Origin: Geomonas limicola
GTDB lineage: Bacteria; Desulfobacterota; Desulfuromonadia; Geobacterales; Geobacteraceae
Length of the DNA stretch: 64,000 nucleotides
NCBI RefSeq assembly: GCF_014193675.1
Contig: NZ_BLXZ01000002.1
Coordinates: forward strand, 682,001 to 746,000
Direction: 5' to 3'
The notes below the pieces were generated by a model. The model was not told the origin of the DNA. It made no database searches and saw only the letters and a program-made list of their open reading frames with translations. Shown here in pieces: positions 3,196 to 49,161 of this stretch (the first letter of the stretch is position 1; every line of letters begins with the position of its first letter). A program made the position numbers and the translations under genes.

Positions 3196-5025
<1,830 letters not shown>

Positions 5026-5044: not shown

Positions 5045-5049
5045 GCGAG
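5045..5049. repeat. target-site duplication GCGAG, glmS-proximal copy
   Basis: GCGAG directly precedes the element terminus TGTCTGG and is repeated exactly after the distal terminus at 48507-48511. Five bases is the duplication length made by Tn7-type transposition. Its centre lies 22 bases beyond the last base of the glmS stop, close to the canonical attTn7 insertion point. Confidence 0.93.
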
Positions 5050-5566: not shown

Positions 5567-5993
5567 TTTTTTTTACCCCTCCGGACTGACCTCCAGATAG
5601 ACCTACCTTATCCTCAACCCATCTACCGCTGTCGGCAACAACCAGGATGGTGTGATTGCTCAGGCCTGGCCAAAATCAGAATTGTAACGAATTCATTCAC
5701 GGGCTCTGCAAAACCCCTTGTGGGCTAGCAAGATACATGAGCCGTTCGGCTGCCATAATACCAGATTTGGTTTTAACGTACTGATATAATTGAAAAAAAT
5801 ATTGCTTCTGGCTGGACTTTTGATTCCTTGCCGGTACCATTTTTGGGGTTTCCCGGAATAGGGGTATCTTGGAACCTTTACCAGGAGCCTATCCGCAACC
5901 AGCGTTTAACCCGGCAAGATTCGGCTAAGGTTTATCTTTTGGCAGACGAAAGGTGATTAGATGGCGGAGTAGATGGCCTACTGGAGGCTTTTA
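5567..5993 (+). other. tns leader region without a gene
   Basis: About 430 bases between the nested element and tnsA with no credible open frame. It holds an extended -10-like element TGATATAAT (5782-5790) without a good -35, about 200 bases before tnsA, the best promoter candidate for the tns operon. A TnsA ribosome site GGAGG lies at 5983-5987. No CRISPR repeat and no recognisable RNA was seen. Confidence 0.4.
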
Positions 5994-6794
5994 ATGGCAA
6001 GAAAAAAATCTTCAACAAATACGAAGATAAAAGAGGGAAGAGGACTAGGGCATGGAAAGGGGTACAAACCTTTCCTGCGGGTTGGTGATGTTCCCTCACT
6101 GGGGAAAAGTTCAAGGCCCAAAGGATGGAAAACCGAAAGAACGCATCAGCTTCTGTCCAGCCTTGAACTCAATTATTTCTATGTTCTTGAGTGGGCCCCT
6201 GGGGTCGTAGATGTCAGAGAGCAGTTTCCGCTACCACTGGAGGAAACGTTAGAAATTGCGAAGCGGCTGGGGATAAAGCACTCAGCTGACAACGCTACGG
6301 GGGAAAGTTTCATTATGACGACCGACTTCTTAGTGGATGAGGTCATAGATGGCAAAACCATTTTGAAAGCTCGCTCAATAAAGCCAGCAAGTGAGTTGGG
6401 CAGTAAACGGGTGTTGGAAAAACTGGAAATAGAGCGGACATACTGGGCTGACCGCGGTGTGGATTGGGGGCTCGTAACCGACCAGGATATCCCCATGGCA
6501 CTTTCAAAGAATGTCGAGTGGGTACATGATTCGCTCTTACCGGAGGTCCCGGAGGACCTTTTATGCCAGATTGAAACGGCTCTATTTGCTGAGTTGGAAG
6601 AAAGAGCTGACATGCCGCTATCGAAATTGGCACTAAAGGTCGATCGCGACTTGGGGATGAAGCCGGGACTTGCTTTATCGGTGGTGCGCCACCTAATTGC
6701 CTCTCGGCAGTGGCTGGTAGATATGAACCAGTTGATTCTTACCGACAAGCCCCTTTCGGTAACCCGGAACTTCTCCGATATTGCTCTTGCTTAG
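5994..6794 (+). CDS. tnsA: TnsA endonuclease of the Tn7-like transposon
   Basis: 266 aa. TnsA cuts the 5' ends of the transposon, so that with TnsB the element is excised by double-strand breaks. ATG 5994 (MARKKSSTNTK) is preferred to the upstream ATG at 5973 because GGAGG sits 6-7 bases before it. Restriction-type catalytic residues fit E58 (in SSLELNYF), D111 (in MTTDFLVD) and K130 (in RSIKPASEL), almost the same spacing as Tn7 TnsA E63/D114/K132. The C-terminal third has a winged-helix-like character expected for TnsC contact. It is followed nine bases later by tnsB on the same strand. Confidence 0.9.
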   Translation: MARKKSSTNTKIKEGRGLGHGKGYKPFLRVGDVPSLGKSSRPKGWKTERTHQLLSSLELNYFYVLEWAPGVVDVREQFPLPLEETLEIAKRLGIKHSADNATGESFIMTTDFLVDEVIDGKTILKARSIKPASELGSKRVLEKLEIERTYWADRGVDWGLVTDQDIPMALSKNVEWVHDSLLPEVPEDLLCQIETALFAELEERADMPLSKLALKVDRDLGMKPGLALSVVRHLIASRQWLVDMNQLILTDKPLSVTRNFSDIALA

Positions 6795-6803
6795 AGGATG
6801 TCC

Positions 6804-8999
6804 ATGCTAGCCGAGTGTGCTGTAATTGAATGGGTTGTGGAAGAAGAGAAGCGGACCTACATGGAACGCATCCTTTATGTCGACCGCCCGGCAGGCCAAC
6901 TTGTAGTTATTGCTCTATGCGATGATGCTTTACCAATTTGGAAATGTCTTGAGGACGTCGCCGATGCCATTGCAGCAGGGCGCGCCTTTCGGAGAGCAGA
7001 CCCCTATGCGTGGCACGCAGACCCGTTGCCGGAGTTTCTGGAAAAGCATGCTGAGCGCAGGGACAGGGGCTGGGAATTAATAAAAGACTTAGTTGGAAAT
7101 GAACCGGGAATCTTTAACCCAGAAATTCGAGGAAAACTGATCCGGGAGGCGGTGGAAAGCCTCGAAACCGACAGAACAGAGCTCTACCGTCTCCTCAGGC
7201 GATACTGGATAAGGGGAAAAATTAAGAATGCCTTGCTCCCATCATATGATCGTTGTGGAGCTCCGGGCAAAACACGGACCCTCGTCCTTAGGGCAGACGG
7301 CTCCTTTGCTAAGCGAGGCAGACCATCCAAAATAAGCCGCCTGTATCCTGACCGCCCGGGAGTCAATGTTGACAATGGGATTGCAGCAATTTTCGATTGC
7401 GCAATCAAGCTTTACTACCACAAACAGAACTCCAGGAGTCTTAAAGACGCTTATGACCAAATGCTGGACAAACACTTCTCGGTGGGGATGGTCCAGAAAG
7501 ACGGAATACAGGTACCCGTGCACTTGCCCCCTTGGGAGCAGCCGACCTATCCCCAGTTCAGATATTGGTATGAAAAGAAGCTTGACCTTCAGGAAGCGAT
7601 CATAAAACGTCGAGGCCAGAAGCGCTTCAATCTTGAAAATCGGCCAATTTTAGGAAGTTCTACACAGATGGCCTTTGGGCCAGGGTCAATATTTCAAATT
7701 GATGCCACCATCGCTGACATCTATTTGGTAAGCACTCTTAACCGGAGTTGGATCATCGGTCGTCCGGTCGTGTATTTTGTTATGGACGTTTTTAGCCGCA
7801 TGTGCGTGGGGCTATACGTTGGGTTGGAAGGCCCTAGTTGGGCAGGTGCCATGATGGCCATTGCCAACGCTACATGTGACAAGGTCGCCTATTGTGCAGA
7901 ATATGGAATCCCAATTGCCGAGGAAGAATGGCCTTGCCATTATCTGCCGGCGAAGATTTTGGCAGATCGAGGGGAGCTTATAGGGCGTAATGCGGACAAC
8001 CTACCGGATAACCTGGACATTACAGTTGAGAACTGCCCGCCATATCGTGGTGACCTTAAGGGAATAGTAGAGCAGCAGTTCCACCGAACTAAAGAGAAAA
8101 GCGTCGTTTGGCTACCAGGGGTAGTTCTTAAAGCGAAAGAACGTGGCACCAAGGATTACCGACTGGATGCCCAATTAGACCTTTATCAGTTCACTCAGGT
8201 TATGATCTACACCATTTTGGAGTACAACCGATTCCATTGGATGGACACATATGAAAAGGAACTGGACTTGATTCGAGATGATGTCCGACCGATTCCCCTT
8301 GAGTTGTGGGAGTGGGGAATTCAGAACAGAGTCGGTAAACTCAAAGAGCGGTCTCCTGAAGTCATCAAAGTCGGCTTAATGCCACAAGGAGAAGCCACGG
8401 TTACTGAGCGGGGCATCAGGTTCGAGGGGGTTTTTTATGATACGGAAAGAGCACTAAGGGAGCAATGGTACGTAAATGCAAGGTCCAATAAAACCTGGAC
8501 AATACCGGTATCCTATGACCCGCGCCAGACGGATGTCATTTACTGGCGCTGTGGTGGAACCACAGTATTTGAACCATGCAACATAATTAAGCGTGATTCT
8601 AGATTCACGGGGTGTCGGGTGGAAGAGGTCCAACAATTTTTCGCCCTCGAAAAGTTAAAGGCTACCGAAAATCTTTCAAACGAACGCCAGGCCGGGGCTG
8701 AACTCCGGGCTAAGCGTGAGCAAATCGTCAAGGACGCGCAGGAAATGACGAGAAAGGATGTTCCCGCAGGACTAAGCAAGAAGGAGCGCCTCGACAAAGT
8801 CAAAAAGAATAGGGCGGACGAAAAACAACGGAACAGAAAGGCAGAAGCCTATGATCTCAGACCTCTGCGGGAGAAGAAGGGGCCCGCGACTGTCCATGTT
8901 CTCGATTCGGAGCAAATGACGGAAGCCGCCAATGACAACTTGCCGATGACTGCTGCGGAGAAAAGGAAGAGGAACCTTGAGTTCCTTGAACGGGACTAA
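6804..8999 (+). CDS. tnsB: TnsB DDE transposase
   Basis: 731 aa, close to Tn7 TnsB (702 aa). It binds the end sites and carries out 3'-end cleavage and strand transfer. The retroviral-integrase-fold triad can be placed at D300 (QIDATIADI), D388 (LADRGELIG) and E423 (GIVEQQFHRT). The N-terminal ~280 residues should contain the DNA-binding helices; the C-terminus is long, lysine-rich and probably coiled, as expected for the TnsC-interacting tail. ATG 6804 is preferred over ATG 6798 because GAGG at 6794-6797 is then six bases away. Together with tnsA and tnsC it forms one tight operon. Confidence 0.93.
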   Translation: MLAECAVIEWVVEEEKRTYMERILYVDRPAGQLVVIALCDDALPIWKCLEDVADAIAAGRAFRRADPYAWHADPLPEFLEKHAERRDRGWELIKDLVGNEPGIFNPEIRGKLIREAVESLETDRTELYRLLRRYWIRGKIKNALLPSYDRCGAPGKTRTLVLRADGSFAKRGRPSKISRLYPDRPGVNVDNGIAAIFDCAIKLYYHKQNSRSLKDAYDQMLDKHFSVGMVQKDGIQVPVHLPPWEQPTYPQFRYWYEKKLDLQEAIIKRRGQKRFNLENRPILGSSTQMAFGPGSIFQIDATIADIYLVSTLNRSWIIGRPVVYFVMDVFSRMCVGLYVGLEGPSWAGAMMAIANATCDKVAYCAEYGIPIAEEEWPCHYLPAKILADRGELIGRNADNLPDNLDITVENCPPYRGDLKGIVEQQFHRTKEKSVVWLPGVVLKAKERGTKDYRLDAQLDLYQFTQVMIYTILEYNRFHWMDTYEKELDLIRDDVRPIPLELWEWGIQNRVGKLKERSPEVIKVGLMPQGEATVTERGIRFEGVFYDTERALREQWYVNARSNKTWTIPVSYDPRQTDVIYWRCGGTTVFEPCNIIKRDSRFTGCRVEEVQQFFALEKLKATENLSNERQAGAELRAKREQIVKDAQEMTRKDVPAGLSKKERLDKVKKNRADEKQRNRKAEAYDLRPLREKKGPATVHVLDSEQMTEAANDNLPMTAAEKRKRNLEFLERD

Positions 9000-9011
9000 G
9001 GAGAGGTGACG

Positions 9012-10715
9012 ATGAATGACAACGGCAGGGCGCACGGCTTCGGCTTCGGTCGGAAAGTTGAGGCACAATACACTCCGAGTTCGGACCCGATGTACCGGCA
9101 CAATTGCTATATAGAGGCACTGCCTCCTCCCCTCGAAACTGAAGAAGTCATCAAAAAAATGCAAAGGTTTCCAGGGTACGACGATAGCGAACGCCGTCTT
9201 CCACCGTTGGAACGCATCTATGCAGTCCAGAAGCTGAGTAATTGTATTGTTCCGCTACCGGACTATATAGAAATTGAAAAAAAGTTTTCGAGAATGCTTC
9301 TCAATGGGTACTTTGCGCGGAACCCACTGTCTGCCGAGTGGGTGAAGCAAATGCAGTCTGCCTTTCCCGGTATTGGCGAAGACGCTCTTGTGAGATCAAA
9401 CGCTGCGGGGTTTGCCATTTACGGGACTAGCGGTGTAGGGAAAACCACCGTAATAGAGAGCATTTTGTCCTTATACCCCCAAGTCATAATCCACACGCAG
9501 TACAACGGGAATCCATTTGATCAACAACAAATAGTCTGGTTAAAGCTCGATTGTCCATTCGACGGCTCTCCGCGCGGGCTTTGTATAAACTTTTTTCAGG
9601 GAATCGATAGGGTCTTGGGAACAAGGTATACTGATAAGCTCCTGAGCAAGCGGGTCACTGCTGACTTATTACTCCCCAAAATGGCTGAGGTAGCTGGAGA
9701 GTGTGGTTTGGGAGTGTTGGTCTTGGACGAGGTCCAGCGGCTGAAGGGGGCTGGGGAAAAACTCTTGAGCTTCTTTGTCCAATTGACAAACGTGATTGGC
9801 GTTCCTGTCCTGATGTCTGGAACCTACAAAGCGATGAGCATGTTTAAAGATGAGGCCGCTGCGGCGAGGCGGGTAGCTGGGCAAGGCGATGTCGTAATGG
9901 ACAATTTCGCCGACGATGAAGTTTGGCGGCATTTATTGAAAAAGCTGTGGCGGTACCAGTACACGGATATACCCACCCCTCTTTCAGACAAACTGATCAA
10001 CGCTTTCCACGAACAATCTCAGGGCATTACAGATATTGCGGTTAAGTTGTATATGTTCGCACAGTGGCAGGTGATAGGCACCGGCGATGAGAAGATCACG
10101 CCAAAGCTGGTGGAGGTCGTTGCCAAAGAAAACCTGCATGCTATGGGACCGATTCTTCGCGCCCTGCGCACTCATGATTTCGAGGCCTTAAGTAAAATAG
10201 AAGATATACGGTCCCCGTGGGACATGGATCTCGTCCTTAAAAATGCCTGCCGACAAGCTCATCTCAGCGGGGCCATGGCAACTATCCGCAATGAAACGCT
10301 CGCGGAAAATTCTGATGCCGAGGTTGGGTCGCTACCTCATGAGAAGCTAGCCTTACAGCTGGTTCAGGCGGGATTTGATGGCGATATTGCGAGAATTGCC
10401 GCACGAAAGGCTTGTGATCGCTTTGCAGCACAGACTGACATGAAACGTGCGAGCGTGGAGGCTTTCCGACTGGCCCAAGAGGCGGATGACCTAAAGAAGG
10501 AAGCCCGGATTGCTCAAGAAATGAAAAAACCGGCCGGTAGGAAGAAAGCCCCCGTGGTTTCCCTTAGTGGAGACCTCCGTGAGATCGTAAAACATGCGGA
10601 GAAAGCAACCACTCCATACGAAGCGCTAAAAAATGCAGGCGTCATAAAATCTCCCTACGAGTTCTTCTCCAAAGGAGCAAACAATGATTCCGTTCTTTCC
10701 CAGGCCGCTTCCTGA
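9012..10715 (+). CDS. tnsC: TnsC AAA+ regulator ATPase
   Basis: 567 aa. In Tn7-type systems TnsC links the target-binding protein to TnsAB and controls target immunity. Walker A is GTSGVGKTT (about 137-145), Walker B is LVLDEVQRL (about 234-242), and a sensor-like PVLMSGTYKA follows. ATG 9012 fits the AAGGAGAGG ribosome site better than the GTG six bases upstream. The last 32 bases overlap the start of tnsD, so these two are translationally coupled. The C-terminal ~120 residues are helical and lysine/alanine rich, the expected TnsA/TnsB contact zone. Confidence 0.92.
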   Translation: MNDNGRAHGFGFGRKVEAQYTPSSDPMYRHNCYIEALPPPLETEEVIKKMQRFPGYDDSERRLPPLERIYAVQKLSNCIVPLPDYIEIEKKFSRMLLNGYFARNPLSAEWVKQMQSAFPGIGEDALVRSNAAGFAIYGTSGVGKTTVIESILSLYPQVIIHTQYNGNPFDQQQIVWLKLDCPFDGSPRGLCINFFQGIDRVLGTRYTDKLLSKRVTADLLLPKMAEVAGECGLGVLVLDEVQRLKGAGEKLLSFFVQLTNVIGVPVLMSGTYKAMSMFKDEAAAARRVAGQGDVVMDNFADDEVWRHLLKKLWRYQYTDIPTPLSDKLINAFHEQSQGITDIAVKLYMFAQWQVIGTGDEKITPKLVEVVAKENLHAMGPILRALRTHDFEALSKIEDIRSPWDMDLVLKNACRQAHLSGAMATIRNETLAENSDAEVGSLPHEKLALQLVQAGFDGDIARIAARKACDRFAAQTDMKRASVEAFRLAQEADDLKKEARIAQEMKKPAGRKKAPVVSLSGDLREIVKHAEKATTPYEALKNAGVIKSPYEFFSKGANNDSVLSQAAS

Positions 10716-12540
10716 CGAATTGCTTTATGGAATCTGCGCGAGGTACCACCAAAAAAGTCGAAACGTGAGCATCAAGTCGACGGTTCAGGACTTATTCGGA
10801 TCTACATCCGCTAGGGCTGTCCTCGACCTTCCCAATGGCATCGCAATTTTGAGTGGGCAGCTTCACGTGAAGACGCTGAATACCCCTGAACGGTTAATAG
10901 AAAGGCACACCCTGTTACCGTTATACAAACCTTTTCTGCCTCCAGAGCGCTATTTGAAGATTTTGGAATGGATGAAGGGCGCAGAAAACGGCCGAGGAAT
11001 TCATCAAGCTATCGGAGCCATGGCTAGTGGCATACCGCTTCTTCGGCTGCTGCGGTGGTGCCCTCAATGTCTCCTTGAGGACAGTGAGAAGTGGGGAGTG
11101 CCTTACTGGCACCGAAGTCATCAGGTGATGGCAGTTTCCACCTGCCACCTGCATGGAGTTCCCCTTTGTGAGCAGAGGCCTTATGCGTTGGTAGAGCTGA
11201 ACCAGCATTTCTTCCAGAGCCCTCCATCGCCATCAGTTTCCTCGATTAGGGAGGGTGCGGGACGCGCGGGAGGAACGCCGCACCAGTTCCGGCTGGCACA
11301 GGATGTTGCCTGGCTGCTCAGCAATCCGCATCTGCCGATACTCGGACTGGATAGCCTCCATGATCGGTACCTGTATTTTCTAAGGGAGAGAGGCTTAGCG
11401 TCATATTGGGGACGGGTGGCCCAGCAGGAGCTACGAGAGGCATTCGTTGCTTTCTATGGAGCCGACTTTCTCAGGGAGGCATTTTCCGATTTGGACCTTG
11501 GCAGTGAACAGACCTGGCTTAGTTCCCTAGTCCGAAAGCCTCGGAGGGCAGCGCATCCAGTGCGGCATCTGCTTCTCCTAAACTTCCTGGGCTTGCATCC
11601 TGAGGCATTCTTTGCCGGTGCCACGATCATAAAAGAAAAGCGACCTTTTGGCCACGGACCATGGCCTTGCCTCAACCCTGCCGCGGGTCACTATCTCCAA
11701 CCCGTTGTTTGCGAGTGTAAAATAACAAAACATACCGAGAATGCCCTTCCAATCGGAACCTTCAAGTGCACATGCGGATTCGCTTACGCACGGACAGGGC
11801 CCGATTTGAAGAAGGAGGATAGGTTTTCTCTGGGACGAATTATCGCCTTCGGACCGGTTTGGGAGGCCGAGCTGCAACGACTTGTTACTGAAGGGGAGAC
11901 TAGCTTGAGAGGGATCGCACGGCGGCTTGGTGTCGATCCAGCTACTGTCAAAAAGCACCTCTATATGAAGCGCGTCACGGCGAAAGAACTCACCAACCTC
12001 CCCGACGATCTCGTAAAGGCACGCCGACAGCGATGGCTCGATCTCTGTCGCCATCACCCCGAAGCAGGAAAAAAATTTATCCGGGCACTTGCTCCTGCTG
12101 ATTATACCTGGCTGTATCGCCACGATAGAGAATGGCTTTTAGGTCTCCCCTGTATACCCCCACAAAAATTTCGAAGAGGAAGAGTAGATTGGGAAAATAG
12201 GGACGAGTGTATCTCGTCAGGGATTACGTCAGCTGTTAATCGGCTTAAGGAGCAGGAAGGAAGGCCGGTTCGCATCACCCTCTCGGCTGTCGGAAAAAAG
12301 CTTGGGATTCTGGCAATTGTCCAGAAGAAGCTGGAGAATCTGCCAAGGACGAGAGCTGCTCTTGGCAGCACCATCGAGACCGATATCGACTACGGGATCA
12401 GGCGAGTGCAATATGCGGTGCAGGCGATTAAACAAAGGGGGGACTCACTGGAGACCTGGAGGGTCGCCAGGAAGGCAGGACTCGGCTCGAATTACGATCA
12501 GGCAGTCGCACATGAAATAACCCGTTTGATAGAGGCCTAG
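10684..12540 (+). CDS. tnsD: TnsD/TniQ target-selection protein (likely glmS-specific)
   Basis: 618 aa, longer than Tn7 TnsD (508 aa). The TniQ domain starts at once (FPRPLPDELLYGICARYH) and has its zinc ligands in CPQC (about 126-129), YWHRSHQ and CHLHG. A second Cys cluster (CECK near 343, CTCGF near 363) and a helix-turn-helix-like segment SLRGIARRLGVDPATVKKHL (about 408-428) follow, as in TnsD proteins that read DNA. Since the element sits at the canonical glmS position, this is the most likely attTn7-binding protein (inference). A ribosome site AAGGAG lies inside the end of tnsC. Confidence 0.88.
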   Translation: MIPFFPRPLPDELLYGICARYHQKSRNVSIKSTVQDLFGSTSARAVLDLPNGIAILSGQLHVKTLNTPERLIERHTLLPLYKPFLPPERYLKILEWMKGAENGRGIHQAIGAMASGIPLLRLLRWCPQCLLEDSEKWGVPYWHRSHQVMAVSTCHLHGVPLCEQRPYALVELNQHFFQSPPSPSVSSIREGAGRAGGTPHQFRLAQDVAWLLSNPHLPILGLDSLHDRYLYFLRERGLASYWGRVAQQELREAFVAFYGADFLREAFSDLDLGSEQTWLSSLVRKPRRAAHPVRHLLLLNFLGLHPEAFFAGATIIKEKRPFGHGPWPCLNPAAGHYLQPVVCECKITKHTENALPIGTFKCTCGFAYARTGPDLKKEDRFSLGRIIAFGPVWEAELQRLVTEGETSLRGIARRLGVDPATVKKHLYMKRVTAKELTNLPDDLVKARRQRWLDLCRHHPEAGKKFIRALAPADYTWLYRHDREWLLGLPCIPPQKFRRGRVDWENRDECISSGITSAVNRLKEQEGRPVRITLSAVGKKLGILAIVQKKLENLPRTRAALGSTIETDIDYGIRRVQYAVQAIKQRGDSLETWRVARKAGLGSNYDQAVAHEITRLIEA

Positions 12541-12692
12541 CAGGTCGTTGAAAAACAAATTTCTAGCCCCCAGAGTCGCAAAAAAGGGGTCCTGTTACCA
12601 CTCGTCAGCAATAGAACGCCTGTTAGAGCCCATTTTCGAGAGCCGAGCTTCTCGGCAGTACCACCTCTCAGGTGAATTTCAACGGCCTGCTA
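12538..12692. repeat. 155-bp inverted-repeat unit between tnsD and tniQ2
   Basis: TAGCAGGTCGTTGAAA (12538-12553) is mirrored by TTTCAACGGCCTGCTA (12677-12692) with one mismatch in 16. The left copy includes the tnsD stop codon. TTGAAA-type termini are common in insertion sequences, so this may be a tiny non-autonomous element or a hairpin-forming spacer between two tniQ genes. No target duplication was identified. Confidence 0.5.
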
Positions 12693-12739
12693 GAGGCTTC
12701 CCAGGTAGAGACATAGCTTTCCGAAGTCGCGGAGCAACA

Positions 12740-13924
12740 ATGTTACCGTTTTTCCCACATCCATATCCAAACGAGTTGCTCTATAGCACGATTGCCAGGT
12801 ACCACTTCCGGAGCAAAAATCCAAGCTATAGAGATACGGCCCAGGAATTACTGGGCTCTCCAACTGCGAGCGTTATCGCGCTGCTACCCAGCAACACGGT
12901 ATTTCTGCACTCACAACTGCACCCGAATACCCTGCTGACCCCTGACAAACTGATATTCGAACACACTCTCTTTCCCCTGTACAAGCCTTTCATAGAGAAA
13001 GATCGAGCAGATTCGGCAATCCGGTATATGAAAAGGTCCTCCGTCGGCGATGGCAGGCCACTTACGGGCCTTCTGAGATATTCCCTTAGTGCCGGCCGCT
13101 CATTTAAGTACTGCCCCCAGTGCTTTGCCTCCGACACTAAAACTCACGGCGAGGCTTACTGGCATAGGGACCATCAGCACTTCGGTGTCCTTACCTGTTA
13201 TAAGCATAATTCCCTACTCGTTGACACGGGATTCCCCTTGGCTCCCACTCAGCAAGAACGCATTTTGTATAGGCTTGATAAAGAGTACCCACGCCAAACT
13301 GCCCCACCCAACTTTACTCGCAAGGACATGAGGCATTTGGAGTTTATTGCGAAGTCGGTTCACTGGCTTATGCACAATCCTGCCCCCGATAATGCAATGG
13401 AAATCTTACACAGAAGGTATGAGCAGCTTCTTGTGGAAAGGAAGTTCGCGACTCAATCCGGATTGGTAGCCCACCGTCCCATCAGCAAGGCCTTTGACTC
13501 CTATTATGGCGAAAGGATTTTAGTCGCGATGTCAAGTTCCCTTCCGATGGCAACAGACAAAAACTGGCTGGTGAGGTTGTTTAGGAGACGGGAAAAAGTG
13601 ACGGATCCCATCAGGCACATTCTGGCGATCCGATTCTTGCGTGAAGACATCCCGGGTATCTTTTCCGAGACCAAAGAACAAAATCTGCCTATACCTAGGC
13701 CGCCCCAGGGCGAAGATCACCTAAGACAGAGCCCTAAAGATGAAAACGCCCTTTCGTGCAAGTTCTGTCCCTTTACCATACCTAAGATATTCCGGAACAA
13801 GGCGGGAAAGGTAATAGGTCCGGATAGCGCACACCTTCGAATGTCAGAACATGTGGAAAAGAACCATCCTGAGGAGTACGAAAAACGGAGAAGATTTTGG
13901 GAAGGCTCCCCAGAGCCCTTATAG
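12740..13924 (+). CDS. tniQ: second TniQ-family protein with C-terminal Cys/His finger
   Basis: 394 aa from ATG 12740, which has GGAG five bases before it; the frame is open back to 12548 but that part overlaps the inverted-repeat unit. The first residues (MLPFFPHPYPNELLYSTIARYH) closely match the start of tnsD, so the two are paralogues. TniQ zinc ligands recur in CPQC (about 125), YWHRDHQ and CYKHN. The C-terminus differs: instead of the second cluster and HTH of TnsD it has CKFC (about 340-343) and HLRMSEHVEKNH, resembling a C2H2-type finger. It may direct transposition to a second class of target or assist TnsD; no CRISPR genes accompany it. Confidence 0.85.
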   Translation: MLPFFPHPYPNELLYSTIARYHFRSKNPSYRDTAQELLGSPTASVIALLPSNTVFLHSQLHPNTLLTPDKLIFEHTLFPLYKPFIEKDRADSAIRYMKRSSVGDGRPLTGLLRYSLSAGRSFKYCPQCFASDTKTHGEAYWHRDHQHFGVLTCYKHNSLLVDTGFPLAPTQQERILYRLDKEYPRQTAPPNFTRKDMRHLEFIAKSVHWLMHNPAPDNAMEILHRRYEQLLVERKFATQSGLVAHRPISKAFDSYYGERILVAMSSSLPMATDKNWLVRLFRRREKVTDPIRHILAIRFLREDIPGIFSETKEQNLPIPRPPQGEDHLRQSPKDENALSCKFCPFTIPKIFRNKAGKVIGPDSAHLRMSEHVEKNHPEEYEKRRRFWEGSPEPL

Positions 13925-40343: not shown

Positions 40344-40634
40344 CTATGATCTACACCAGTCAACAAATCTGCGCCAGAGTCTCCGCAACAGTGACTCGGC
40401 CTCGATTTTTTGCGCCTTTTGCCAGTTTACTGCCGCGATGTAGGCATCCTTATCAGCTTTGTCCTTTGCTCTGACTCGCTCGATCTGGTGGTGCGAGAGC
40501 CGGCGTGCCCAAACCACTCGATCCTCTTTAATCCAGTAATGGGATTTACATGAAAAATTCCAATTCCCAATTGACGGAGTCAGAGAGATCAATTCTCCTG
40601 TCTTGACCTGACCGTCGGAAGTCTTTATCCTCAC
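40344..40634 (-). CDS. DUF6527-like protein, C-terminal half only
   Basis: 96 codons from GTG 40634. [19 protein letters not shown] and [16 protein letters not shown] resemble the C-terminal half of DUF6527 proteins, which I recall beside ubiquitin-like conjugation and other conflict systems. The N-terminal half with its cysteine-rich metal site is missing and a TAG lies two codons before the GTG, with no ribosome site, so this is probably a truncated remnant or a short variant. Only gene of the cargo besides araC and the 13.9-kb remnant on the minus strand; 77 bases divergent from the DUF4238 gene. Confidence 0.55.
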
Positions 40635-40711
40635 AAACTGCTACCGGTTCCTTGGGACAGAACCGGTTAGGCAGCATTCCCCTGATTTCAACTCACTCGT
40701 GGTGAAGCGGT

Positions 40712-41947
40712 ATGCCTGATTATCGCCGGAATCATTACGTACCGCAGTGGTACCAAAAACGCTTCCTGTCAAAAGGACAGCGTTTTTTCTATTTGGACAT
40801 GCGTCCAGACACGGTAGTGACTCCGACAGGGCATAGGTACCCACGAAATTCGCTGCATCAGTGGGGCCCGAATCTTTGTTTCTATCTCGATGATCTCTAC
40901 ACCACCCGCTTTGGGACCTTAGAATCAACCGAAATTGAGGAGAAGTTCTTTGGGAAAATAGATAATGCAGGGCGCAGTGCTGTAGAATATTTTTCCTCCT
41001 ACAACCACGACAGCGTTAGCTATGAAGCCTTGAGGACCATGTTGCCGTACATGTCGGTGCAGAAACTGCGGACCCCAAAGGGGCTGCAATATCTTTCAGA
41101 GATTGTAAGACTTAATGACAAAAATCAAGTTTTGTTTGCGCTCCAGGAGTGGCAGCAGATGCATTGTGCTCTTTGGATGGAATGTGTGTGGGCAGTTGCA
41201 GATGCCTCCTCCTCCCCCACAAAATTTATAGTAACGGACCATCCGGTAACTGTTTACAATAAAGACTGCTTTCCTTTGTCAAAATGGTGTAAGGGGTGTC
41301 ATGACCCTGCTATATGGCTTACTGCCACTCACACGCTGTTTCCTCTGGACTCTAATAAAATTTTGATCCTTACGAACCTGTCGTGGGTTCGCAATCCCTA
41401 CGGAAACCCAGTCCTGAAGAGACCAAACCCTCAGCTTTTCAGGCCGGCAGTTTTCAATTACACTCAAATTCAGGTTGGCCGACAGCTGGCAGAGCAGGAG
41501 GTCATAGAAATCAATTATGTTCTAAAAAAACGTGCGTGGAGGTATATCGCTGCGGCAGATAAAGAGTGGCTGTACCCGGAGCGCCGTCTCAGGACACAAC
41601 ATTGGGATAGGCTCGGGGGAGGTTATCTTTTTATGCCAGATCCCCGAGAAGTAAGCTTTTCCTCAGAGATTCTTTTCGGTTATGATGATAAGCGTGTTCA
41701 GGCTTTCGATGCCTACGGCCGTCGGCCTTGGCAACAAGACTATGACAAGAAAGAGGATCATGATCGAGAATGGGAAACTGCTGAGGCGTTTAAAGGTGAG
41801 TTCGCTAGGCTATTCGGCCGGAAACACAGGGGTAGGAGTAACCGATTTGGTGATTTTTACCGCGGTTGTGGAGAAGATAGTCCTACAATGTTCGAGTCGT
41901 ATTTAAAAGCAGAACATAGACATCAGAAACGACGGAAGAAAGGTTAA
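40712..41947 (+). CDS. DUF4238 protein, candidate defence component
   Basis: 411 aa. The N-terminal RRNHYVPQWYQKRFLSKGQ is the hallmark of DUF4238, followed by a mid-part FIVTDHPVTVYNK that recurs in the family. The C-terminal ~90 residues are charged (RR, DKKEDHDREWE, RKHRGRS) and not part of the usual domain. Function is unknown; members turn up in genomic islands. It is co-directional with the giant NTPase gene 63 bases downstream, so a two-gene unit is plausible. Codon use appears AT-richer than that of the redox module. Confidence 0.75.
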   Translation: MPDYRRNHYVPQWYQKRFLSKGQRFFYLDMRPDTVVTPTGHRYPRNSLHQWGPNLCFYLDDLYTTRFGTLESTEIEEKFFGKIDNAGRSAVEYFSSYNHDSVSYEALRTMLPYMSVQKLRTPKGLQYLSEIVRLNDKNQVLFALQEWQQMHCALWMECVWAVADASSSPTKFIVTDHPVTVYNKDCFPLSKWCKGCHDPAIWLTATHTLFPLDSNKILILTNLSWVRNPYGNPVLKRPNPQLFRPAVFNYTQIQVGRQLAEQEVIEINYVLKKRAWRYIAAADKEWLYPERRLRTQHWDRLGGGYLFMPDPREVSFSSEILFGYDDKRVQAFDAYGRRPWQQDYDKKEDHDREWETAEAFKGEFARLFGRKHRGRSNRFGDFYRGCGEDSPTMFESYLKAEHRHQKRRKKG

Positions 41948-42010
41948 CAAGGGGGCTCGTCCCCACAGGCGACGTAACCAAAAAAAGGTAATACAGAGGG
42001 ATACTTCATT

Positions 42011-45000
42011 TTGAGTCAATCTCCTGAACTTGCGGGCGGCAGTGGCTTCACTTTTGAGGATAGGGTTTCCGCGAATTATCTCGCTGCCCTCCTCCAACAG
42101 GGGTTCGCGCCCGGTATTGCTGACCGAATCGTCTGCCGGGTCGCACTTCAACAGCGTGATGTTGGAGAGCCTCTTGACGATGTCATTGTTGATTTTAGCT
42201 CGACTCAGGGCGACCTCGCCCGCCTCAGTCTTCAGGTGAAGCGCGCGCTCACGATCAGTGCAGCCATAACCAACACAAATTTCCATGAAATCATCCGCGA
42301 TTGCTGGCACACCCTCACCAAGGATAACTTCCGCAAGGGTGTTGATCGGTTCGGGGCAGCTGTTGGCGAGGTCGCAACAGATAAGGTGCGAGACCTTAGG
42401 ACCCTCTGCGAACTCGCCAGATCAAGCACCACCTTAGCTGAATTCGAGGCACGATTTTCCCCAACCGGCAATGCCAGCGCCGCAGTTCGTCACATCAAGA
42501 ATGATATTTCATCATTGATCCAGAAAGCCAAGGGATCAGCCTGTTCTGGCCTCCAGTTGATGGATTTTCTTGCCCACTTTGTTCTAATAGAATTCGACTT
42601 TCTTCACGAGGGGCAGATAGGCCTCCCACTCGCACTCAACACTCTAAGGTCATGTCTGCTGACTAGCGATCCCTCGCACCCCTCAGCTTTATGGGACCGA
42701 CTCACGGCTCTTGTGCGTGAAGGTGCAGGGCGTTCAGCTGTTTTCGATCGCCCAAGTCTTGTTCGCATTCTTTCTCACTCATTCCGAGTCGCCGTGGGGC
42801 CCTCATTCCGAAAGGACTTGGAGCGCATTGAGGTATTCACGAAACAGTGGCTAGCTGACATCGAAGATGATGTTGGTGGCACTCGCCTAGAACGCCACGA
42901 GCTCAAACTTGAAACCGCCTCGAAGATGGATTCCTGTAGATGGGTACAGATCCGCGGGTTGCCCGGCAGTGGCAAATCTGTTCTTCTCCGGCGCTGTGTT
43001 GAGGCCGATCTGGCCCGAGGTCCTGTTCTTTTCTTGAAATCCGGTCGGCTAGACGGCACTGGATGGGCAAGCTTCGCTACAGCAAATGGACTTTCGAACG
43101 CTGCGCTACGAGACCTCCTTGTAGAAATAGCTGCTGCCGGCTCAAGGACGATATATATCGACGGCGTCGACAGAGTCGAAAAGCCTCATCAGGCTGTCGT
43201 TCTTGATATCGTTCGGACGGTAATAACTGACCCGCTTTTGGACAATATGCGGATTGTTGTTACCTTGCGTGACACCGGCATCGAACCACTACGAAATTGG
43301 CTGGGTAACGTGCTCGCTTCTGTCAGTATCGAGACTGTTGAGGTTGGACCCCTTAATGACGAGGAAAGTGAGATACTGGCGAAGGAACAGCCGCATTTGC
43401 GTCGCTTGCTGTTTGCAGCCAAACAGGTGCAGGAGATAGTTCGGCGTCCCTTCTTTGCCAAGATCCTAAACCAGAATTTTGGTTCACATGCTGGTGATGA
43501 GGGATTCCTACCGCAGTCAGAAGTAGACCTCCTCGAGAATTGGTGGAACAGAGGCGGTTATGACTCCACTGGGCAGTCCGCGTTGGAACGCCAGCGCTCC
43601 ATCATCGAGTTGAGCTCAAAACGTGCCAGGCACTTCGAACGAGAACTCACCATCCGCGAACTGTCCACACCGACCGTAGCGGTGATTGACCAGCTTATCA
43701 GAGATGGCATTCTTCAATATGTGAGGGGGGGACATAGCCTTCGTTTTTCCCACGACATATTTTTTGAGTGGGCCTATTTCCATGCCCTATCAGATGCGGA
43801 AGACTGGTTGAGTGAGGTCCGTGCTTGCGGCGAACCGCCGGCCATTGCTAGATCCGTCGAGTTGCTTTCGCAATGGCAATTCAACCAGGGCCCGATCTGG
43901 ACCGAGACGCTCGGTAAGTTCGACCAAGCTCTAATGCGGTCGCAATGGACGCGATCCTGGCTATTAGCCCCGCTTGCCGCACCTAGCTTCAGAACTGGTG
44001 AAATATTTTACTGGCCTGCGCTGGAGGCGAACGATCACTACTATTTAAAGAAACTGTTGGTCTGGTTCCAAGCTGAGCGGACTATGCCGAATCCTGTGAT
44101 CTTAAAGGGTGACCTTCCTCAGGATGAACGTATCCGAGTGGCCGATTTCCTTGGCTGGCCTTCCGATTTTGAGTCATGGTCTAGGTTCATCTTCTTTCTT
44201 CTGACGCGCATCTCTGCGATTCCAATTACCCTCTACCCAGCTGTGTTGTCAATCTTTGAAGTTTGGCAAAATGCGCTTGCTGGGTCAAAGAATCCGATCT
44301 CCTCTGCACTTCTTGACCAAGTCTCCGCTTGGCTTGCAGAGGTTTCAGAGCAGAGTGCCTCTCGCCGCCCCTCTCCCATTCCCTCTAGGTGGGCGCCTCT
44401 CGGCCCTCAGTTAGGTGATTTTACGAGCTCATTGCTTAGACTGATTCTTCGGTCCGCTGAGGTGCGGCCGGATCTCACAGAGGCATACCTCAACCGCCTG
44501 ATTAATATGATCGATTTGCGGCGTGAAAGGTTTGCAGAGGTGGTGACATTTTCACCGATTCTTGCGCGCTCCCATCCGATGTTGCTTGTTGAGTTGACTC
44601 TCAAACATATGCTGCGCGAGCTTCCTGAGGAGCAGAAGGCGCGAGAACTGAAGGAATACGAACAGGCTATCGAGCAACGAAACCGCGCTCAAGAGAAACC
44701 TCCGGGGGAGCGTACCCGTGAGGATGATCTGGCTTTAGATGGGTTATTCATCCCATTTGGAGTGGATTCATTCAATCGGTTTGAGTGGGAGAATCTGGCG
44801 ATAGAAGACGATATCGGAGCATATTTCCCACCGTCACCACTTCGTGAGCCTTTCCACTCTCTGTTTACCTTAGCACCCGAGGAGGGCCTCCGGCTTCTTG
44901 CCGGTCTATGCAACCATGCCATGACCGCTTGGCAACAATTGTACAAGCTTGCATCTGAAGAAGCTACTCCTGCTCCAATTGAGATCCAGTTCCCCTGGGG

Positions 45001-47398
45001 CAAACAGCTTTTCTGGGGGAACAATCGCGAATACCTCTGGTGCCGCGGGATGTGGGCTCCGAAACCAATTGCCAGTGCTTTGCTCTCGCTAGAAGAATGG
45101 GCTTTTAGCGAGGTTGAACGTGGTCGCGAAATTGATGAGCTAATCCGTCAGATGCTGGCCGGAAATGAGTGCATCGCTGCTCTGGGGGCAGCTGCTGCTA
45201 TAGCCATAGAATCTGAAGCAATGACCGAAGGGATATTTTCACTTGTTACATCTCAGCGTCTGCTATCAGCAGACCATGACCGTTGGCAGCACGACCTGAC
45301 GGATAAAATGTCTGGACTCATAGGGTTTACTAACCCAGGAGATTGGCCTCATATTGAGGCAGTGAAGAGGATCAATGACCGTCAGTTTCGCCAGCGGGAA
45401 CTGAACTCGGTTATATCGAGATTTTTCCTTCTCGGGGGTGATGAGTTCTCAACTCGTATCAAAGCCGCCATTTCTGCTTTGGCGAAGAAACCAGCCTTTG
45501 AGTTTGAGGAACAACGGCAGGATTCTGAGGCGGCGAAGGACCTTACCTGCCAGGCAGAGGAGTTGGCTGAGCTAATAGAAATACAAAATTATCAACGTGT
45601 AGAAACCAACGACCCTGAAAAGGTTGGCGTTGTGCATGTTAGCCCTAGTCGTTTGACGCCTGAACGTATTGCGCAAGCGGGGGAGGCTTACACCAAACTT
45701 CGTATAAACAGCCTTTGGGTTTGGGGCTCCAAATACTTCGAATCCGGTGCGTTGGCCGAAAGCTTCAGTCTTCAAGATGCCGTTGACTTTGCTAGGGATG
45801 TTGACACTCCAGAAATATTTGATGCAACTGAAAATGAAGCTGGGGACATTGATATGCACCGCGGTGCAGTTGCCGTCGTTGCCGCTGTTGCACTTAATTG
45901 CCCAAATGCTTTGACAAAGGCAGATCTCGCGTGGGCTCGTAGGACTGTCAATCGCGCGTTTACAGCGCCGGAGGTTCGGAGCATTTTCTGGTCCGTTCGC
46001 TCGGTCATTCCGTGGCACCATCTCATCTTTGTAGCAAGAGGGCTCGCGGCGGACATCGATAATGGTACTGCGGAGCCAGACTCCCCACGTAAATTACTTA
46101 CCATAGTCGCTCATCCGCTGGAGGTAGTCTCTCTCGCAGCTTTGGAGGCTGCGCTGGGACTTCATGCTCGGGATCAAAAGATTGGCTGGTCTGCTTTGTA
46201 CCTTGCCTTATCCCTATGTGTCCTGCCACCACGGTCCGAACCACGGGACATCTCCGAAGGTATTCACTCACCGGACAGAGTTCATTCGGCAGTTGAAGAA
46301 GCAATTGGCTTCTACGAGGAACCCGGAGACTGGATTGCTCTCCCTCTGCCCGCTCCCGCATGGATCAGGGTCCAGGGTAGGGATAAGGCGCACGAAACCA
46401 AGGATCGGAGCGAAGGGTCATTAAAACCGTCTGGTTTACCCGAAATTACCGAGGAACGATGGGCCGCTTCTCCAACACGTTGGTACGATCATTATGCGGC
46501 TGAGGTGATCAAGCAAATTCCAGTGAAAAGGTACCTTTCAGGCCCTGGTGGTTCCAAGCTCCTCGACTTCCTTGCTGGAGGACTAGAATGGACGATCTCT
46601 AAACTGTCTCCTCCCTCACAAAAAGGAAGGCGTGAGGACAGCGGAGACAAACTCTATGAATGGAAAAACGAATTGGGGAGAATTATCGGTAAGGCGGCAG
46701 GGCTGTGCCCTCTGCTTGAGGTCAAGGCCCGGTTTCTTGACCCCATTTTTGCCTTAAACGGTGACAAGTGTTGGGAGCTTCTCGCACCACTTGTTGACCT
46801 TTACATCCGCATGTACTTCTATGACGCGGAGGAGGTGCCACCAGACGGGGTAGAGCTGTTGATGCAGTGCCTCGACCGGTCCTTGGAAGCTCCCTCATTT
46901 CTGCCAGGAGACTATCGTAGTGGTGACTTCCATGGTTTTCATTTGCCTCGTCTGGTCAAGTCGTTAATGTTTGTGAGCGTGGAGCGGATCGCTCCAGGTG
47001 CAGCCCGCTATGCGAATGGGGACTGGAAGGAAATTGATCGAATTTTACCGGTCGTGGATCGTTACATTCGAGCTGTTGGCTGGGTTTCCACCATAATGTA
47101 TCATTTCCTCACGCTCTGTGAGCGATCGAAGGAGGTCTATCCCGCTGCCCTATTTGCAGATCAGGTTCTGCACGTCATGGATGGTGGTGGACCGTCCTTG
47201 GTAGGCTGGCACAACTCGGTCCTCCCTGCACGGATTGCTTCCTTGGTTCAGTACCTCTCGGACCGAGAGACTCCAATGCCATTAGCCTTAGGTCAACAAT
47301 TTCTCCGTATCCTAGACCTCCTCGTGGACATGGGCGACCGAAGGAGTGCTGCCCTCCAATGCAGTGAAACCTTCAGGCAGATCCAGATCGAAGCATAA
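42011..47398 (+). CDS. 1795-aa nuclease-like/P-loop NTPase protein (Avs/STAND-like)
   Basis: TTG start at 42011 with AGAGGG about ten bases before it. The N-terminal ~150 residues look like a PD-(D/E)XK nuclease of the Cap4/DUF4297 kind: E in GFTFEDRVSANYLAALL, D in LDDVIVDF and QVK in LSLQVKRAL. Walker A is GLPGSGKSVLLRR (about 316-328) and Walker B is TIYIDGVDRVE (about 379-389), followed by VTLRDTG and a winged-helix-like stretch. The remaining ~1300 residues are helical without a repeat I can name, the place where Avs proteins carry their phage-protein sensor. This architecture suggests an abortive-infection type defence protein (inference). Confidence 0.72.
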   Translation: MSQSPELAGGSGFTFEDRVSANYLAALLQQGFAPGIADRIVCRVALQQRDVGEPLDDVIVDFSSTQGDLARLSLQVKRALTISAAITNTNFHEIIRDCWHTLTKDNFRKGVDRFGAAVGEVATDKVRDLRTLCELARSSTTLAEFEARFSPTGNASAAVRHIKNDISSLIQKAKGSACSGLQLMDFLAHFVLIEFDFLHEGQIGLPLALNTLRSCLLTSDPSHPSALWDRLTALVREGAGRSAVFDRPSLVRILSHSFRVAVGPSFRKDLERIEVFTKQWLADIEDDVGGTRLERHELKLETASKMDSCRWVQIRGLPGSGKSVLLRRCVEADLARGPVLFLKSGRLDGTGWASFATANGLSNAALRDLLVEIAAAGSRTIYIDGVDRVEKPHQAVVLDIVRTVITDPLLDNMRIVVTLRDTGIEPLRNWLGNVLASVSIETVEVGPLNDEESEILAKEQPHLRRLLFAAKQVQEIVRRPFFAKILNQNFGSHAGDEGFLPQSEVDLLENWWNRGGYDSTGQSALERQRSIIELSSKRARHFERELTIRELSTPTVAVIDQLIRDGILQYVRGGHSLRFSHDIFFEWAYFHALSDAEDWLSEVRACGEPPAIARSVELLSQWQFNQGPIWTETLGKFDQALMRSQWTRSWLLAPLAAPSFRTGEIFYWPALEANDHYYLKKLLVWFQAERTMPNPVILKGDLPQDERIRVADFLGWPSDFESWSRFIFFLLTRISAIPITLYPAVLSIFEVWQNALAGSKNPISSALLDQVSAWLAEVSEQSASRRPSPIPSRWAPLGPQLGDFTSSLLRLILRSAEVRPDLTEAYLNRLINMIDLRRERFAEVVTFSPILARSHPMLLVELTLKHMLRELPEEQKARELKEYEQAIEQRNRAQEKPPGERTREDDLALDGLFIPFGVDSFNRFEWENLAIEDDIGAYFPPSPLREPFHSLFTLAPEEGLRLLAGLCNHAMTAWQQLYKLASEEATPAPIEIQFPWGKQLFWGNNREYLWCRGMWAPKPIASALLSLEEWAFSEVERGREIDELIRQMLAGNECIAALGAAAAIAIESEAMTEGIFSLVTSQRLLSADHDRWQHDLTDKMSGLIGFTNPGDWPHIEAVKRINDRQFRQRELNSVISRFFLLGGDEFSTRIKAAISALAKKPAFEFEEQRQDSEAAKDLTCQAEELAELIEIQNYQRVETNDPEKVGVVHVSPSRLTPERIAQAGEAYTKLRINSLWVWGSKYFESGALAESFSLQDAVDFARDVDTPEIFDATENEAGDIDMHRGAVAVVAAVALNCPNALTKADLAWARRTVNRAFTAPEVRSIFWSVRSVIPWHHLIFVARGLAADIDNGTAEPDSPRKLLTIVAHPLEVVSLAALEAALGLHARDQKIGWSALYLALSLCVLPPRSEPRDISEGIHSPDRVHSAVEEAIGFYEEPGDWIALPLPAPAWIRVQGRDKAHETKDRSEGSLKPSGLPEITEERWAASPTRWYDHYAAEVIKQIPVKRYLSGPGGSKLLDFLAGGLEWTISKLSPPSQKGRREDSGDKLYEWKNELGRIIGKAAGLCPLLEVKARFLDPIFALNGDKCWELLAPLVDLYIRMYFYDAEEVPPDGVELLMQCLDRSLEAPSFLPGDYRSGDFHGFHLPRLVKSLMFVSVERIAPGAARYANGDWKEIDRILPVVDRYIRAVGWVSTIMYHFLTLCERSKEVYPAALFADQVLHVMDGGGPSLVGWHNSVLPARIASLVQYLSDRETPMPLALGQQFLRILDLLVDMGDRRSAALQCSETFRQIQIEA

Positions 47399-47500: not shown

Positions 47501-47674
47501 TAGTTGGATACTTTATTCTTTGCAATGCCTTGAAAAAATCAAATTACTGGCGCCGGATTGTTGATTATAAGCTGGTCAACGAGTGAAATTGCACGACTTA
47601 ACGACATTTTACTATAGATTGGTTCTCTCTTGAATATAATAAAGTCAATAACTGTTAAATAAACTTCCCAACTA
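47501..47674. repeat. internal TnsB-like sites, possible remnant transposon ends
   Basis: TAGTTGGATACTTTATTCTT at 47501-47520 has the orientation of the distal-end sites. TTAAATAAACTTCCCAACTA at 47655-47674 has the opposite, glmS-proximal orientation and is directly preceded by a weaker copy at 47635-47654 (14 of 20 positions), giving the 20-bp tandem period of the proximal array. The rest of the 47399-47780 gap has no gene. This looks like an eroded junction between two Tn7-like ends. Confidence 0.6.
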
Positions 47675-47780: not shown

Positions 47781-48335
47781 ATGGATACGACAGGAAACCT
47801 TTTATCACTGTTGGAACCAGGTGGCGTATATCGGCGATCCGACCTTGCGAGGGCAGTCAAGGGTGTGGATCGTGAGTTGATCAAGTTGGTGAATGCCAAG
47901 CGCCCAGAAAAGGTTGGCCGAGGACTTTACCATTTTCCAAGGCACTCGCGCTTTGGGAGTCTCCCCCCTGATCCGGAGAAGTTGGTGAAGGCTTTCCTTC
48001 GAGACAACCACTTCTTGGTAATCTCGCCAAATGACTTTAACTGCCTCGGCGTCGGGACAACTCAACTCTACAATTGCTTGTGGGTTTACAACCGGAAGCG
48101 TAGTGGTAGCTTTGAGATAGGTGGCCAGGTGTTTGTGCTCTTCAGAAAGCGCCATTTCCCGGACAAGGCTAGTGTGGAATTCCTACTTGTCACGCTAATT
48201 GACAATTTGAACAACCTCGCAGAGAATAGAGAAGACGTTAGATCAAAGGCGCTCGCAAGACTACAAGAGGAAAGATTGGCACAGGTTGAGACGGCGTCGC
48301 GAGAACCTCTAGGTAACGTCCCCAAGTCGAACTGA
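47781..48335 (+). CDS. AbiEi-like antitoxin/transcription-regulator protein (DUF6088-type)
   Basis: 184 aa. The N-terminal winged-helix region (LEPGGVYRRSDLARAVKG, then KVGRGLYHFPR) and the following NHFLVISPNDFNCLGVGTTQLYN / FEIGGQVFVLFRKRHFP segments match AbiEi-like or DUF6088 proteins, the antitoxin side of type IV toxin-antitoxin pairs. No AbiEii-type nucleotidyltransferase is next to it, so it is an orphan. It sits between the internal TnsB-like sites and the distal end array, the last gene of the element. Confidence 0.72.
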   Translation: MDTTGNLLSLLEPGGVYRRSDLARAVKGVDRELIKLVNAKRPEKVGRGLYHFPRHSRFGSLPPDPEKLVKAFLRDNHFLVISPNDFNCLGVGTTQLYNCLWVYNRKRSGSFEIGGQVFVLFRKRHFPDKASVEFLLVTLIDNLNNLAENREDVRSKALARLQEERLAQVETASREPLGNVPKSN

Positions 48336-48363: not shown

Positions 48364-48498
48364 TAGTTGGAAACTTTATTCTCTCTAATCTGTGGTGATG
48401 CGCAAATTCAGTAGGAAACATTATTTATTTTCGACCGAGGCCGAGTTTGCTTCAACTGCCTGAAATACAACGATAGCTTAGTTGGCAACTTTATTTTT
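48364..48498 (-). promoter_or_regulatory. TnsB-type binding sites, distal (L-like) end
   Basis: Three inverted copies of the ~20-bp site: 48364-48383 (TAGTTGGAAACTTTATTCTC), 48409-48428 (weaker) and the terminal 48479-48498 (TAGTTGGCAACTTTATTTTT). They are spread over ~135 bases, unlike the contiguous proximal array, which mirrors the loose left end and compact right end of Tn7. The element ends CCCAGACA at 48506. Confidence 0.82.
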
Positions 48499-48506
48499 CC
48501 CAGACA

Positions 48507-48511
48507 GCGAG
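48507..48511. repeat. target-site duplication GCGAG, distal copy
   Basis: Exact repeat of 5045-5049, directly after the distal terminus. Joining 5049 to 48512 restores the uninterrupted glmS downstream sequence with its terminator. Confidence 0.93.
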
Positions 48512-48544: not shown

Positions 48545-48985
48545 GATGCACGATTTGTTAAGAGCGATGTACAAGCTGTTGATCGCTATGCACGAGTTGT
48601 TGAGAGCGATGCACAAGCTGTTGATCGCGATGCACGAGTTTTCGAGAGCGATGTACAAGCCGTGGATCGTGATGCACGAGTTGTTGAGAGCGATGCACAA
48701 GCTGTTGATCGTGATGCACGGGTTTTCGAGAGCGATGCACAAGCCGTAGACCGCGATGCACGGGTTTTCGAGAGCGATGCACAAGCCGTAGATCGCGATG
48801 CATGAGTTTTCGAGAGCGATGTACACGCTGTTGATCGCGATGCACGAGTTGTGAAGAGCGATTTACAACTCGTAGACCGCGATGCACACGCTGTGAAGAG
48901 CGATGTACAACACGTAGACCGCGATGCACAAGCTGTGAAGAGCGATGTACAAGCTGTTGATCACGATGCACGAGTTGTGAAGATG
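48545..48985. repeat. minisatellite, 21 units of 21 bp in a 42-bp alternating pattern
   Basis: Units alternate between type A (GATGCACGAGTTGTTGAGAGC-like, 21 bases, here abbreviated) and type B (GATGTACAAGCTGTTGATCG-like). The 21-bp register is unbroken from 48545 to 48985; the last unit is partial. Because 21 is a multiple of three, several frames on both strands remain open as heptad-like peptides; no ribosome site or start supports any of them, so I treat it as non-coding. It lies directly behind the glmS terminator. Confidence 0.88.
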
Positions 48986-49161
48986 GGCTGACAATCGTCA
49001 GCGTCGGGTACCTTGGGCGGGGAAACGGCTGCCTTGACCAAAGCGGTCCTTTTTCTTATAGTGGGGCGGTAAAAAGGTCCGGGGTTGGCTATGAAAGTGC
49101 TTCCCGGCCCTGGTACCATGAGCAGGTTTTTCTATATTCTTTCGTCGACCCGGGAGTCGTT

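Follow-up and report, generated by a model that had tools for sequence, protein, structure and literature searches.

A likely stand-alone STAND sensor with a Cap4-type nuclease, distantly related to Avs4, in the Tn7-like cargo of Geomonas limicola

Avs4 was reportedly defined by Gao et al. in 2022, who are said to have identified the phage portal as its ligand and to have described many effector types. The N-terminal nuclease of E. coli Avs4 is Mrr-like. The Cap4, DUF4297, LmuA and HamA endonucleases of CBASS, HerA-DUF4297, Lamassu and Hachiman each have a partner to which they are coupled: SAVED, HerA, SMC or a helicase. In the summary given in PMC12931631, the phage protein to which Avs1-4 respond is the terminase, the portal or a further one, and they cut the DNA of both phage and host; the portal is listed there as the ligand of Avs4, and the Avs5 clades respond to yet other ligands. 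Effector variation in STAND immune receptors has been described for P4-satellite systems, and in the same work a DUF4238 gene on its own, as a single-gene system, was strongly protective against T7 (Rousset et al. 2022, PMC9122126).

The window analysed here, a stretch of 64,000 nucleotides, contains a complete Tn7-like element, and two adjacent genes at the distal end of its cargo encode a DUF4238 protein and a giant NTPase. The features of the locus are as follows.

3196-5025, glmS-like SIS/GATase gene, with the tns genes downstream
5050-48506, no strand, complete Tn7-like element of 43,457 bp, downstream of glmS
5973-13924, genes for TnsA, a Mu-transposase-C protein in the tnsB position, a TnsC/TniB-like AAA protein, TnsD and a second TniQ
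40344-40634, minus strand, DUF6527 remnant (PF20137, 3e-11; profile positions 33-63 of 63 only)
40712-41947, plus strand, DUF4238 gene, 411 aa (PF14022, 3.1e-13)
42011-47398, plus strand, giant NTPase gene, 1795 aa, TTG start
47781-48335, plus strand, AbiEi-like gene (PADLOC, 1.1e-59)
48365-48506, no strand, distal (left) end of the transposon, carrying three TnsB-like sites

Several lines of evidence define the element. It carries TnsABC together with TnsD/TniQ, lies at a glmS site, is flanked by a 5-bp target duplication (GCGAG, 5045-5049 and 48507-48511), and is bounded by a terminal inverted repeat (TGTCTGG from 5050, CCAGACA up to 48506). Ten TnsB-like sites were found in the window against 0.1 expected, and they mark both element ends. 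The G+C content is about 0.48-0.56 within the element and 0.64-0.65 outside it. An earlier note, made from the sequence of the window, had described the two genes as cargo of a Tn7-like element beside a DUF6527-like fragment and an AbiEi-like gene, and all of this holds: both genes are open reading frames at the positions it gave, one with the PF14022 match, the fragment retains the C-terminal half of the DUF6527 domain and is divergent from the DUF4238 gene, and the PADLOC match identifies the AbiEi-like gene. No AbiEii-sized ORF adjoins the latter inside the element. Tn7-like cargo often includes defence genes (PMC8649781), and a search of that cargo survey found no mention of AVAST genes.

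The 1795-aa protein combines three parts in one chain.

42011-42784, plus strand, Cap4/LmuA/HamA/DUF4297-type PD-(D/E)XK endonuclease domain, residues 1-258, from fold and conserved residues
42878-43780, plus strand, STAND/NACHT-like NTPase core, residues ~290-590
43796-47398, plus strand, C-terminal sensor, residues 596-1795 (~1200 residues)
44792-46000, plus strand, sensor segment homologous to E. coli Avs4, about residues 928-1330 against 765-1178 of 8DGF

It was structure that identified the N-terminal domain, as no Pfam model recognises it and a sequence search of the PDB gave no identification either. An AlphaFold model of residues 1-280, computed with 40 homologues as input, reached a pLDDT of 90.8 and a pTM of 0.86. 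The modelled elements follow one another as a helix (15-29), three strands (40-46, 58-63 and 69-80), a helix (89-102) and a strand (113-121), which in the model is the order of a PD-(D/E)XK nuclease. In VIA-align, where unrelated rows scored a Z of about 3.5-5, the model matched Cap4 (Z 13.1, 220 residues, 5.2 A), HamA of Hachiman (Z 13.1, 205 residues, 5.1 A), LmuA (Z 12.6, 197 residues, 4.1 A), HerA-DUF4297 (Z 12.2, 183 residues, 3.4 A) and the N-terminus of Avs3 (Z 9.7, 188 residues, 4.3 A); Foldseek gave an E of 4e-7 for LmuA. Cap4, HamA and LmuA are thus the best matches, and the Avs4 structure 8DGF is absent among the matches listed, which does not exclude a likeness to it. Residues D56, D57, Q75 and K77 are invariant among 35 members of the family and E16 is nearly so, giving the domain the D...QxK motif of the Cap4/DUF4297 type as well as its fold. 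The lysine of QVK to which the earlier note had drawn attention is this conserved K77, and the invariance of the four residues makes it the predicted catalytic lysine; its proposal of a nuclease-like N-terminus is borne out by the nuclease core of the model.

The PADLOC model PDLC02918 ("DUF626_VIII"), presumably that of a retron-associated effector to judge from its name, covers the N-terminal stretch in 36 of 38 members. In the window protein, residues 1-255 match its positions 1-236 of 474 (E 1.9e-20), but the 474-residue protein has neither STAND core nor sensor.

The STAND core carries a Walker A motif (GLPGSGKS, 316-323), a Walker B aspartate (D384), D387-R388 and the segment HDIFFEW (581-587). 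K322 of Walker A, D384 and D387-R388 are invariant in the 35 members. Pfam NACHT matches the giant gene weakly (7e-4). When a profile of 35 full-length family members was searched against the PDB, it matched 8DGF with an E of 1e-20, in three collinear stretches that correspond to the STAND core, the HDIFFEW region and sensor residues 931-1333. The C-terminal 1200 residues searched alone found 8DGF as their sole match (E 1.2e-10). The homology is remote and extends over roughly one third of the C-terminus. Conservation is lowest at residues 1401-1500. The NCBIfam Avs4 model (NF041815) gave an E of 2.7e-18, but the score was 64.7 bits and the curated cut-off for an equivalog is 1500. Because the score lies so far below this cut-off, we call the protein Avs4-related rather than Avs4.

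Like Avs4, the protein is the product of a single gene of comparable length with the domain order nuclease-NTPase-sensor, and its STAND core, HDI(F/Y)-containing segment and part of its sensor are collinear with those of Avs4. This order and the likeness to Avs had been noticed earlier, and both survive the closer comparison. It differs from Avs4 in its score and perhaps in its nuclease, for which the nearest matches listed are Cap4, HamA and LmuA; from the systems built on those endonucleases, with which it shares the N-terminal fold (Z 12-13) and the D...QxK motif, it differs in that the nuclease is fused to a STAND NTPase instead. Avs3 (8DGC) shares the nuclease fold and the architecture of a STAND sensor, but its STAND and sensor parts gave no significant sequence match in the PDB search. 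We found no description of a Cap4-type nuclease combined with an Avs4-related sensor in the open-access literature, and a literature search for Avs4 with Mrr or Cap4 returned nothing on topic. The suggestion that the unit is undescribed stands in part only, because the NTPase is homologous to Avs4 in STAND core and sensor. The 1795-aa protein is a variant, not a new kind of system, and this nuclease-STAND-sensor variant is named weakly or not at all by the current Pfam and NCBIfam models.

In all, 84 NTPase loci of the family were fetched: 80 came from scanning a single genome for each species, and four from viral contigs (IMG/VR). They are mostly proteobacterial, with other phyla represented as well. 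Upstream sequence extended for at least 800 bp at 75 loci and at least 2 kb at 64, and at the latter no recurrent partner gene was seen; the commonest neighbours at the NTPase loci are tyrosine-recombinase-like integrases, identified by eye. In four members, L042 (9437-14572), L046 (9347-14596), L061 (1470-6611) and L089 (1898-7102), the nuclease is replaced, while STAND core and sensor are retained from about residue 261-269 at 33-48% identity. L042, L046 and L061 begin with an uncharacterised N-terminus of about 190 aa (SIAGALLPKGKQLY). The N-terminus of L089, in which no Pfam match was found, contains GISGSVIF; read by eye, this looks like a trypsin-type serine site in a protease-like domain. 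A tree of the shared part, some nodes of which are weakly supported, nests the members that lack the nuclease within nuclease-bearing clades: L042 with L070, L046 and L061 with L033, and L089 with L060. With other N-termini in four members that nest among nuclease bearers, the N-terminal part acts like an exchangeable effector, as in other STAND immune receptors. The family is widespread and combines a Cap4-type nuclease with an Avs4-related sensor, and its effector has been exchanged in nature. A more remote Cap4-type nuclease-STAND protein is present twice, with identical scores, in one genome (G161:C1; L006 and L011).

We consider it probable that the 1795-aa protein is a stand-alone, one-gene anti-phage STAND sensor with a nuclease, distantly related to Avs4. 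The analysis computed its fold, catalytic residues and STAND core, the remote Avs4 kinship of its sensor, the effector swaps in its family and the family's stand-alone occurrence. At rest the protein would be a monomer with bound nucleotide. Its long C-terminus would bind a conserved phage structural protein, and homology to Avs4 makes the portal the first candidate. Binding would cause the STAND domains to oligomerise, so that the N-terminal Cap4-type PD-(D/E)XK domains meet and cut double-stranded DNA of phage and host, the predicted activity of the fold, and this cleavage would abort the infection. The chances that the ligand is the portal and that it is another protein appear roughly equal.

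The ligand may differ from that of Avs4, since the equivalog cut-off was missed by far. The NTPase could belong to the Avs4 superclade and yet be a further Avs type with a ligand of its own, for example the terminase, the capsid, a tail protein or some other early protein, a reading to which we assign somewhat less than an even chance. The remote and partial similarity of the sensor, the low Avs4 score and the variability of residues 1401-1500 are consistent with it, as are the Avs5 clades, which in the summary cited above use other ligands again (PMC12931631). Against it, the sole detectable PDB homologue of the sensor is Avs4, a portal sensor, and portal recognition could persist as a feature of the fold. 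With similar reserve we can see the whole family as a separate Avs type that shares sensor ancestry with Avs4, responds to a conserved phage ligand other than the portal, and carries a swappable effector, mostly the Cap4-type nuclease and otherwise a protease-like or uncharacterised domain. The family permits a test of whether portal recognition is ancestral in this sensor lineage.

A regulatory role outside defence, or inactivity as a relic, is very improbable for the NTPase. The gene is flanked by metabolic cargo and gene fragments, which favours such a reading, but its 1795-aa frame is intact, its catalytic and Walker residues are invariant across phyla, its closest fold matches are defence nucleases, and the family has integrases as commonest neighbours and is present on viral contigs.

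The DUF4238 protein scores 50.2 bits against PF14022, where the curated cut-off is 27. It is a short form of 411 aa. Most relatives have about 800 aa (for example L115:8001-10382, L019:7983-10493 and L117:8001-10424), and in several of them a SEC-C zinc motif is accompanied by a conserved region in the C-terminal part (GSVIVTDS); neither is present in the window protein, which lacks the C-terminus of some 400 aa. A full-length relative of the short form, at 51% identity, is encoded at L126:2178-3413 on a contig that has no NTPase but has a gene whose product was judged by eye to be Zot-like. The Zot-like gene suggests a filamentous prophage, of which the short DUF4238 gene is probably accessory cargo. 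An AlphaFold model from nine DUF4238 sequences reached a pLDDT of 49, a profile of the long form matched the PDB with any strength in its SEC-C motifs alone, and no DUF4238 relatives were found in the phage collection.

The earlier note had joined the DUF4238 gene and the NTPase gene in one defence unit, and here the neighbourhood search led to a different conclusion. No DUF4238 gene was detected at any of the 84 NTPase loci, either by tblastn, with matches inspected up to an E of 0.5, or by a profile search of 4188 neighbouring frames, and no NTPase was found at the DUF4238 loci fetched from plasmids, viral contigs and genomes, where the neighbours varied. The one weak match to the DUF4238 profile near a family member (L056:15473-17944) proved to be a SEC-C zinc motif in another protein. 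That DUF4238 is an accessory or regulator in a two-gene unit is therefore extremely unlikely: the genes are adjacent, co-directional and 63 bp apart within defence cargo, but they do not co-occur in either direction among the loci fetched, the closest DUF4238 relative of the same length stands alone on a prophage-like contig, and in the published case DUF4238 defends by itself (PMC9122126). The window gene shares PF14022 with that single-gene system, which is unrelated to the NTPase and in which the activity against T7 was shown for another member. Judged from sequence and neighbourhood, the DUF4238 gene is a predicted independent defence gene that shares the Tn7-like cargo, not a conserved partner of the NTPase. 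With the pairing corrected, both genes can be tested separately.

Two extra TnsB-like sites inside the element, at 47502-47518 (minus) and 47657-47673 (plus), lie between the NTPase and AbiEi genes; the first is oriented like a left end and the second like a right end. A second Tn7-like element, inserted in tandem, may have left them behind, although the terminal TGT/ACA was not seen at these sites (47502-47673). Immediately outside the distal transposon end, an array of 21-bp repeats (GATGCACGAGTTGTTGAGAGC-like) occupies positions 48545-49006.
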